Positions 6,443-26,846 of a DNA stretch of 64,000 nt are shown piece after piece. This DNA is from a virus. The notes beneath the pieces are model-generated. The model searched no databases. It saw only the letters and a list, made by a program, of their open reading frames with translations, and had not been told where the DNA came from. The number at the start of each line of letters is the position of its first letter. Position 1 is the first letter of the stretch. Made by a program: the position numbers and the translations under genes. The stretch spans positions 26,768 to 90,767 of the IMG/VR virus record IMGVR_UViG_3300025104_000001; one strand, given 5' to 3'.

Positions 6443-6517
6443 TGGTGGAGCTGCGGGGAATCGAACCCCGAACTGCGCCTTGCAAGGGCGCTGTGTTCCC
6501 AATTATACCACAACCCC
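6443..6517 (-). tRNA. tRNA-Ala(TGC)
   Basis: 75 nt with encoded CCA. Acceptor GGGGTTG pairs with CAGCTCC (two G-U pairs), anticodon loop CTTGCAA, T-arm CGGGG TTCGATT CCCCG. Confidence 0.93.
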
Positions 6518-6553
6518 AAAAATCTACATTGTTTTGTATATATTCAAAACGTT

Positions 6554-6629
6554 TGGGATGACCCACGGGATTTGAACCCATACTGCCAAGGTCACAACAT
6601 AGAGTTCTAATCATTACACTAAAGTCACC
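6554..6629 (-). tRNA. tRNA-His(GTG)
   Basis: 76 nt with encoded CCA. It has the extra 5' G(-1) opposite C73 that marks tRNA-His, anticodon loop TTGTGAC, T-arm ATGGG TTCAAAT CCCGT, and a mismatch in the anticodon stem. A 7-bp inverted repeat (6545-6551/6636-6642) flanks it. Confidence 0.88.
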
Positions 6630-6640
6630 ACTAAGCGTTT

Positions 6641-6717
6641 TGGAACGGTTAGTCAGATTCGAACTGACACTTCGGATTTGGAAGACCCGCGTGCTAGCCG
6701 TTAAACACTATAACCGC
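6641..6717 (-). tRNA. tRNA-Gly(TCC)
   Basis: 77 nt with encoded CCA. Acceptor GCGGTTA/TAACCGT, anticodon loop CTTCCAA, T-arm GTCAG TTCGAAT CTGAC. Confidence 0.92.
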
Positions 6718-6730
6718 ATTGAATATAACA

Positions 6731-6810
6731 GGATGGCTCCTACTTTTTGATTAAAGAGAGAAATCGAAACTCTCAACCAGTATATCTTAAAATAACTGCT
6801 GTAACCATCC
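6731..6810 (-). other. tRNA-like element with insertion between T-arm and acceptor
   Basis: Ends GGATGGT and GCCATCC pair over 7 bp like an acceptor stem, and a T-arm-like GAGAG...TTTCGAT...CTCTC is present. However, about 16 extra bases separate the T-arm from the 3' acceptor strand, and no good anticodon arm is found. It is probably a decayed or rearranged tRNA located between tRNA-Pro and tRNA-Gly. Confidence 0.45.
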
Positions 6811-6821
6811 TTAAATTTTTG

Positions 6822-6892
6822 TCTCCGAAGAAGGAATCGAACCTTCGCCTCATGGCCCCAAACCACGCACGCTACCATTACACCACTCGGAG
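6822..6892 (-). tRNA. tRNA-Pro(TGG)
   Basis: 71 nt to the discriminator base; CCA not encoded (ACA follows the acceptor). Acceptor CTCCGAG/TTCGGAG, anticodon loop TTTGGGG on stem CGTGG/CCATG, T-arm GAAGG TTCGATT CCTTC. Confidence 0.9.
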
Positions 6893-6983
6893 TGATTTCC
6901 ATTTTTCTACGGTGACCGCTACCAACTCGCTACTGAGTTGTATCACAGTTAGTTGGATCACTGCATATGATACTTTTAATCAG

Positions 6984-7076
6984 TGGTGCGGTAGGTTGGA
7001 TTCGAACCAACAGTGTTTACCACGAGGGACCGGATTTACAGTCCGGGGATGCACACGCCATAGCATCAACTACCGC
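6984..7076 (-). tRNA. tRNA-Tyr(GTA)
   Basis: 93 nt with long class II variable arm and encoded CCA. Acceptor GCGGTAG/CTACCGC, anticodon loop CTGTAAA on stem CGGA/TCCG, T-arm GTTGG TTCGAAT CCAAC. Confidence 0.93.
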
Positions 7077-7087
7077 ATCTTTGTCGT

Positions 7088-7155
7088 CACCATTTCAAAA
7101 CACAATATCGGTCCGGGATTCTAACCCATTTCTAATTTTGTGTTTTGAAATGGTG
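7088..7155 (-). repeat. 18-bp perfect inverted repeat between tRNA-Leu and tRNA-Tyr
   Basis: CACCATTTCAAAACACAA at 7088-7105 is exactly complementary to 7138-7155; the 32-nt loop contains GGGTTAGAATCCC, a T-arm-like remnant. The right arm includes the encoded CCA end of tRNA-Leu. It may be a precursor-processing stem or the scar of a lost tRNA. Confidence 0.8.
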
Positions 7156-7235
7156 CCCCTAGCAGGGTTCGAACCTGCACTCCTTTCGGAAGCGGATTTT
7201 GAGTCCGCCGAGTCTACCAGTTCCTCCATAGGGGC
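7151..7235 (-). tRNA. tRNA-Leu(CAA)
   Basis: 85 nt with class II variable arm and encoded CCA. Acceptor GCCCCTA/TAGGGGC, anticodon loop CTCAAAA, T-arm GCAGG TTCGAAC CCTGC. First tRNA of the leftward cluster. Confidence 0.93.
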
Positions 7236-8493: not shown

Positions 8494-8609
8494 ATACCTT
8501 TGTGAATGGCACCCCCTGGAGGAATCGAACCTCGTGCCGTCCATCCTTCACTAAGGAACGGTTTAGAAGACCGTTGAAGGGACAGGGGGTTTAATTTACA
8601 AAGGTATTC
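8494..8609 (-). repeat. 14-bp inverted repeat flanking tRNA-Arg
   Basis: AATACCTTTGTGAA (8494-8507) and TTTACAAAGGTATT (8596-8609) are complementary in 13 of 14 positions and directly flank the tRNA-Arg gene, so the precursor would be closed by a long stem. Confidence 0.7.
8508..8591 (-). tRNA. tRNA-Arg(TCT), aberrant: no canonical D-arm
   Basis: 84 nt with encoded CCA. Acceptor ACCCCCT/AGGGGGT, anticodon arm ACGGT CTTCTAA ACCGT and T-loop TTCGATT are clear, but only nine bases (GTCCCTTCA) separate the acceptor and anticodon stems. The 23-nt variable region holds a TCCTT-AGTG-AAGGA hairpin and GGAC complementary to the 5' GTCC. It may be a functional odd tRNA or a decaying gene. Confidence 0.7.
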
Positions 8610-26347: not shown

Positions 26348-26846
26348 ACTGTTTCTCATTATGATTCTTCTATTGGGCTCTCTAATTCCTTCACATGCTT
26401 CAAACTACAAAGCGATTGACGCCATTGAAGCCCTGTCAAATGCAAACAAAGAAATGGTTTGTCTGGCTAAGGTCATTTATGATGAAGCACGAGGTGAAAC
26501 GCCTCGTGGCATGCAAGCCGTTGCCCACGTTGTTTTGAATCGAGCAAAACATCAAGACTACCCTGGTACAATCTGCGGCGTTGCATATCAAAAGCATCGT
26601 GGCGTTTGTCAATTCAGCGGAATGTGCAAAAAGAAGACTAAGCAGTTTGATGCCGAGTCTTTGAATGTAGCATATAGAGTTTTGGTTTTGAAGGACGTAA
26701 AAGACCCAACCCGAGGCGCAACACACTTTCACAATGATACCACATCACCGCCATGGAGCAAAACATATGTCAGAACAGCAAGAATTGGAAAACACACTTT
26801 CTATAAACCAGGCTATCGACAAAATCCAAGTAGTCGAGGAGATTGA
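26280..26846 (+). CDS. SleB-like cell-wall hydrolase with signal peptide
   Basis: After a hydrophobic export signal (KLFLIMILLLGSLIPSHA) comes the Hydrolase_2/SleB domain: LAKVIYDEARGETPRGMQAV, VLNRAKHQDYPGTICGV and GATHFHNDTTSPPW. The Glu in YDEARGE is the likely catalytic residue of this lytic transglycosylase-type fold. The start is uncertain: ATG 26280 overlaps the nuclease gene by 68 bp; TTG about 26306 or ATG 26360 are alternatives. It would degrade peptidoglycan, perhaps early during infection since it is embedded in a replication operon rather than the lysis cassette. Confidence 0.75.
   Translation, partial: NTKHLDQSLLLSGKTFGKSTVTKLFLIMILLLGSLIPSHASNYKAIDAIEALSNANKEMVCLAKVIYDEARGETPRGMQAVAHVVLNRAKHQDYPGTICGVAYQKHRGVCQFSGMCKKKTKQFDAESLNVAYRVLVLKDVKDPTRGATHFHNDTTSPPWSKTYVRTARIGKHTFYKPGYRQNPSSRGD

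Follow-up and report, generated by a model that had tools for sequence, protein, structure and literature searches.

A D-arm-less tRNA-Arg(UCU) gene of a T4-like phage and its phage relatives with a predicted pseudoknotted core

The D-arm and its loop contacts are held to be near-universal in tRNA outside mitochondria. The 8/4 and 9/3 tRNAs (allo-tRNAs) and tRNA-Sec, which have a 12-bp acceptor/T branch, a long variable arm and serine, histidine, cysteine or selenocysteine identity, keep their D-arm. The described exceptions are mammalian mitochondrial tRNA-Ser(GCU/AGY) and the D-arm-less mitochondrial tRNAs of nematodes and arthropods (PMC4394434, PMC9976931). The phage genes described here share with these the missing D-arm and the retained acceptor, anticodon arm and T-arm (PMC4394434, PMC9976931), but they lie in bacteriophages rather than mitochondria, and they differ in structure: in the mitochondrial tRNAs the D-arm has shrunk to a connector and the T-loops are atypical, whereas the phage genes replace it by a 5-bp helix, supported by covariation, with the loop of the variable arm, and have a canonical T-loop (TTCGATT). 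The preliminary description of the gene that started this work had considered a D-arm-less tRNA unusual outside mitochondria, and we agree. One class of the phage genes (class A) shares with the 8/4 tRNAs a long variable arm and an acceptor/T branch of 12 bp divided 8/4; it differs in having no D-arm, an apparent arginine identity, and a variable arm that pairs with the D region. The tRNA-like structures of plant RNA viruses (PMC9976931) are likewise viral and pseudoknotted, but they form the 3′ end of a genomic RNA, whereas in the DNA phages the pseudoknot would be at the centre of a separate tRNA gene. Canonical phage tRNA-Arg(UCU) has the same anticodon, T-loop, CCA, position in tRNA clusters and presumed decoding of AGA; the D-arm-less kind differs in having no D-stem or D-loop, a pseudoknotted core and (in class A) the 8/4 branch, and in being missed by ARAGORN.

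The gene was found in a window of 64,000 nucleotides (positions 26,768 to 90,767 of IMG/VR record IMGVR_UViG_3300025104_000001, a 90.8-kb virus contig). Genes for SbcC-like, sliding-clamp and baseplate-wedge proteins mark the source as a T4-like tailed phage; the baseplate protein shares about 35% identity with the counterpart in Methylophilales phage Melnitz, and no DNA match to a named phage was obtained for the first 25 kb of the window. The gene occupies window positions 8507-8590 on the minus strand (84 nt, CCA encoded), between two small co-directional ORFs and about 1.3 kb upstream of a cluster of six tRNAs on the same strand (6443-7235). Sequence, covariance model and homologues all define it over this whole interval. 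Read from 8590 to 8507, it begins with the 5′ strand of the acceptor stem, ACCCCCTG (8583-8590), a TC linker (8581-8582; 2-3 nt in the family) and, where the D-arm should be, the strand CCTTC (8576-8580), the 5′ side of a helix that we call P2. The anticodon arm follows, with stem strands AACGGT (8570-8575) and ACCGTT (8557-8562) around the loop CTTCTAA (8563-8569; anticodon UCU at 8567-8565). The variable arm then contains CCT (8554-8556), the 5′ strand of a second helix, P4; a linker TAGT between P4 and P2 strands (8550-8553), A-rich in the family alignment; the 3′ strand of P2, GAAGG (8545-8549), within the variable-arm loop; and, after AT, the motif GGA (8540-8542) and the 3′ strand of P4, CGG (8537-8539). 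After CAC come the T-arm (8519-8533; stem GAGG/CCTC, loop TTCGATT), the 3′ strand of the acceptor stem, CAGGGGGT (8511-8518), and the discriminator G73 with CCA (8507-8510).

The preliminary identification as a D-arm-less tRNA-Arg(UCU) was borne out. The acceptor stem, an anticodon arm with UCU, the T-arm and the CCA end can all be read in the sequence, and U33, a purine at position 37, a T-loop of the form TTCRANT and a CCA end are found in the gene and its family. Counted as a 7-bp acceptor and a 5-bp anticodon stem, the two are separated by nine bases (GTCCCTTCA), which is insufficient for a D-arm; the gene is not a four-arm cloverleaf, as the interval from acceptor to anticodon arm holds just 2-3 linker nucleotides and P2. 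Standard tools fail on it: neither ARAGORN nor Rfam at gathering score detects the gene, the Rfam tRNA model does not reach threshold at its place, and the one Rfam match is a sub-threshold tRNA-Sec hit (27.2 bits, E 0.0013). Our covariance model R1 scores it at 106 bits, with the gene itself part of the R1 seed. An unconstrained fold of its RNA (z = -3.98) already displays the acceptor, P2, the anticodon arm and the T-arm.

Covariance-model searches, a check that the preliminary description had proposed, were run together with pattern searches, and 80 distinct class A genes were parsed from all fetched DNA. Their stems are an 8-bp acceptor, a 5-bp P2, an anticodon stem of 5-6 bp and a 4-bp T-stem. 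Across 81 distinct class A sequences, standard pairs fill 97.9% of cells against 70.7±0.6% after shuffling (because the sequences are related, the shuffle statistics overstate independence), and the figure falls to about 51% when the partners are slid by one column. Both sides change in 21 of the 23 pairs; there are 456 double-change cells against 103±11 in shuffled sets and the covariation score is 0.749 against 0.193, on alignments that were seeded gapless (A2, A5). Stem by stem, 98.1% of acceptor cells are paired in these 81 relatives, with double changes in 8/8 pairs; the anticodon stem reaches 99.8% for 5 pairs; and the T-stem reaches 99.1%, its sequence being partly set by the search pattern. 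The acceptor and T-arm that the preliminary description had found convincing are present, with stem lengths corrected to 8 and 4 bp: the eighth acceptor pair occurs in 71/80 genes, G-C to A-U changes included, and an alternative fifth T pair in just 5/80.

The conserved partner of the D region is the variable-arm loop (CCTTC with GAAGG in the window gene), a helix that the preliminary description did not see. P2 is paired in 99.0% of cells (396/400, against 72.8% shuffled, in a parse that demanded at least 4 of 5 P2 pairs), with double changes in 5/5 pairs; in an earlier pattern-only set it was present wherever the acceptor and anticodon stems were sound. When the set is reduced to 18 sequences of low similarity, the value is 96.7% against 63.1±3.9%. 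The region is therefore not an unpaired connector of the mitochondrial type. P4 joins the three bases after the anticodon stem to the three bases after GGA, and was used in no search pattern or model; it is paired in 77.9% of cells against 48.5±2.9% shuffled (68.5% against 43.6±5.9% in the 18 thinned sequences), counted on its own structural registration rather than on the covariance-model alignment A4, whose inserts displace the P4 5′ strand. For each of the 5′ classes GGC, AGC, GCC, GAC, CCC, ACT, ACG, ATC, CAC and GTC the complement is found after GGA (GGC/GCC, AGC/GCT, GAC/GTC, ATC/GAT, CAC/GTG, and so on); in the window gene P4 is limited to its first two C-G pairs. Neither of the variable-region pairings in the preliminary description (the hairpin, and GGAC with GTCC) is conserved across the family; a local hairpin of at least 5 bp occurs in 10/80 relatives. 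Since P2 and P4 cross, comparison across the family indicates a pseudoknotted core for class A, with an 8-bp acceptor, a 4-bp T-stem, a 5-bp P2 and a 3-4-bp P4 crossing it.

Class A genes occur in unrelated phages, among them Lazarusvirus, Aeromonas phage AhSzw-1, Escherichia phage Av-05 and Vibrio phages. Distant blastn matches of about 70-75% identity span the gene in the unrelated Acinetobacter Lazarusvirus and Salicola phage SCTP-2, and shorter matches were obtained in Salmonella phage Arash, an oyster Zobellviridae phage, Nitrincola phage 1M3-16 and Acinetobacter phage ME3; none of these is annotated as tRNA. A pattern search of IMG/VR returned 116 stretches in viral contigs, and with the AhSzw-1 copy as query, blastn gave matches in 369 phage records, of which 314 are Vibrio; the annotation of the matches listed was only "none" or "hypothetical protein". 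ARAGORN detected none of the 79 class A genes on which it was run. The family is nearly limited to phages: a scan of about 85,000 bacterial and archaeal genomes gave 15 pattern matches, most of them unrelated, the true members being L127, L134, L138 and L140, and the Av-05 copy was sought in E. coli genomes and not found. CCA is encoded in 70/80 class A genes, and 51 of 79 have a canonical same-strand tRNA no more than 1.5 kb away. Because UCU and T-arm patterns seeded the searches, the class A counts are biased towards UCU and a GAGG T-stem.

Several features of the surrounding loci may be recorded here. A tandem pair of class A genes with anticodons UCU and ACG was seen in L089 (6418-6592); the ACG copy has GTGTA replacing the GGA segment and may be degenerate. 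A class A gene of L022 has, at a distance of 88 nt, an ARAGORN-called tRNA (6822-6906) whose UUA anticodon would make it a suppressor of UAA. Acinetobacter phage ME3 (L008) has a group I intron match (81 bits, 2043-2379) about 500 bases downstream of its D-arm-less gene and the adjoining tRNA-Met and tRNA-Leu, and a weaker second one at 1747-1966. In AhSzw-1 (L409, 5468-6034) an HNH-endonuclease-like frame lies just upstream of the tandem D-arm-less tRNAs; it is interrupted in frame by seven TAG codons, with neither TAA nor TGA before position 190, a pattern suggesting that the phage may decode TAG as an amino acid.

Relaxed searches revealed a second group of about 110 distinct genes with a related architecture (class B). 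Their acceptor/T branch is 7/5, positions 8-9 are TA, a P2 of 3-4 bp occupies the place of that of class A, and TAA, one or two bases, and GGA follow it. The class B P2 pairs in 276/288 cells against 67.9±2.2% shuffled, in many classes (CGG/CCG, CTC/GAG, CCC/GGG, CGC/GCG, CAC/GTG, CTT/AAG and others). Class B is less hidden than class A, because the Rfam tRNA model reaches its cut-off for some of its members (L400, L411); ARAGORN detects 6 of the 110. E. coli phages of the BASEL set carry class B genes, as in Bas93/Bas94 (PQ850617.1, 59419-59500), and in four phage records (G051, G052, G050 and G057; loci L233, L254, L225 and L221) there are at least three D-arm-less arginine tRNAs with differing anticodons per record.

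The anticodons are overwhelmingly those of arginine. In class A, UCU accounts for 73/80 and CCU for 5/80. Searches run free of any anticodon gave arginine anticodons almost exclusively: the class A loci that they first returned were all known UCU loci, a further search added a CCU gene (L148), and about 43 of the 44 true class B matches carried UCU or CCU. More CCU genes came from another search, and Arg ACG, UCG, GCG and CCG were brought in by parsing and by model searches over whole records. The tRNA-Arg bases C35 with U36 or G36 are accordingly present, in UCU and CCU and, in class B, also in the four others. Rare members have Ile anticodons (GAU, UAU), CAU or, in class A, Tyr (GUA).

A near-invariant GGA lies between the 3′ strands of P2 and P4. 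It is present in 60 of 61 genes of a set that did not require GG, the remaining one being a register error. The base after GG is A in 189/193 arginine members against 1/7 of the Ile, CAU and Tyr members (Fisher P 1.8e-8, on the less favourable count, with only seven non-arginine genes available). The Ile and CAU members carry GGT, except for L396, and the class A Tyr genes GGC or GGT; the exceptions to the rule are an Arg(CCG) gene with GGT (L452) and the UAU gene with GGA (L396). The latter belongs to class B (L396, 1726-1805) and its anticodon stem is poor; it may be a pseudogene or an arginine tRNA in the course of change. In bacteria, A20 is the main determinant for ArgRS, which prefers A or G at position 73 (U73 is also in the review's table), and the isoleucine identity set includes U20 and A73 (PMC9976931). 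Because base 20 is a determinant and the third base of GGN tracks identity, we infer that GGN may be G18-G19-N20 moved into the variable arm. There is no D-loop to hold A20; a GGA in the variable arm that differs in most non-arginine members fits a relocated A20, although it is not proof of one. The discriminator is G73 in the window gene and T in 31, G in 26, A in 21 and C in 2 class A genes.

The genes appear to fill an empty slot. Canonical Arg(UCU) accounts for 0 of 378 canonical tRNAs in class A loci (13 expected); in control loci it accounts for 18 of 508 (P about 1.5e-6; the control loci were taken from two other pattern searches, so the background is approximate). No other Arg(UCU) gene was found in the 90.8-kb contig of the source phage. 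AhSzw-1 has tandem D-arm-less CCU and UCU genes and, in the same 12 kb, 20 canonical tRNAs, none of them for arginine. AGA occurs 12.5 times per 1000 codons in the window, where it makes up 26% of the arginine codons; this frequent use of AGA in the phage's own genes is probably the reason for making the D-arm-less tRNA, whose role would be codon supply, as is usual for phage tRNAs.

The preliminary description had also reported a 14-bp inverted repeat enclosing the gene. The repeat is real, with 14 of 15 positions paired between the leader arm AATACCTTTGTAAAT (8608-8594) and the trailer arm ATTCACAAAGGTATT (8507-8493), both on the minus strand, and the part of it outside the gene was unmatched in 200 shuffles. 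It is not conserved in the family: comparable inverted repeats occur in only about 6 of 80 relatives (L060, L064, L015, L031, L034 and the near-identical L045), so it was rejected as a part of the D-arm-less system and is taken to be local to this phage lineage, in whose precursor it probably folds the leader on the trailer.

Four other readings of the gene have to be weighed. The preliminary description named one of them itself, a decaying gene, that is, an ordinary tRNA-Arg that has lost its D-arm by deletion and is drifting. The missing D-arm, the failure of ARAGORN and of Rfam at its gathering score, and a few degenerate-looking relatives (L007 and the ACG gene of L089) are what such a gene would produce. 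Against it stand compensatory changes at most pairs over some 80 class A relatives in unrelated phages, the usual CCA and the near-invariant GGA; for the family, covariation and spread refute decay, and for the window gene we regard it as very improbable. The sub-threshold Rfam match and the long acceptor branch recall a variant selenocysteine tRNA, but the score is far under the gathering score of 47, and ordinary tRNA-Ser genes in the same loci outscore it with that model. The anticodon is UCU or CCU, not UCA (no UCA anticodon was found in the family), and there is no D-stem, let alone the long one of tRNA-Sec; this identity is rejected, with next to no probability left to it.

A fold so far from that of normal tRNA could also belong to a non-decoding tRNA mimic, for instance one that diverts host anticodon nucleases as a decoy or sink, a titrator of ArgRS or a regulatory RNA. 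Phages deploy tRNAs against tRNA-cutting defences (PMC10264068, PMC11555353). A decoy with a fixed anticodon is rejected by the CCU and other anticodons of the family. The range of six arginine anticodons and a few for Ile and Tyr, some in tandem isoacceptor sets, the position of the genes in place of an absent canonical Arg(UCU), and the encoded CCA usual in class A all make any mimic unlikely. The last reading is compatible with decoding and adds a cause to it: the core would have been selected, rather than being neutral, for evading host enzymes (nucleases or modification enzymes) that recognise the D-arm or elbow. The near limitation to phages (few matches in cellular genomes beside the many viral stretches) is consistent with this, as is the cutting of tRNAs by host systems during infection (PMC11555353, PMC13096335), and we hold it as a tentative addition only. 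Our preferred reading, to which we give a probability of roughly 0.8 from the comparative sequence evidence, is that the window gene is a functional arginine tRNA for AGA codons, a member of a phage family that is widespread and has replaced the D-arm; for the members at large, functional AGR-decoding tRNAs with a new core fold would be the best reading.

If the gene is such a tRNA, P2 would take the usual role of the D-stem and stack on the anticodon stem. By analogy with G18-G19, GG would dock into the T-loop in their stead, the A of GGA would take over from A20 as the ArgRS determinant, and the molecule would decode AGA. We lean, with rather less assurance than for the window gene, towards a new structural class of tRNA, in which a pseudoknot between variable arm and D region stands in for the D-arm and provides the elbow contact and the identity base (G18-G19-N20) from elsewhere in the chain, and which has diversified into six Arg anticodons as well as Ile and Tyr, with base 20 switching with the amino acid. 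There is a good chance that this architecture deserves a class of its own; a search of the open-access literature found no report of D-arm-less phage tRNAs or of such an architecture. Because tools of the ARAGORN type miss class A, studies of phage tRNA repertoires, codon supply and anti-defence probably lack the D-arm-less Arg tRNA. Relocation of the ArgRS determinant A20 becomes directly testable, and class B is present in laboratory phages of E. coli. With some 80 class A and 110 class B genes that do without a D-arm, phages offer a natural test of what a tRNA needs for charging and decoding.
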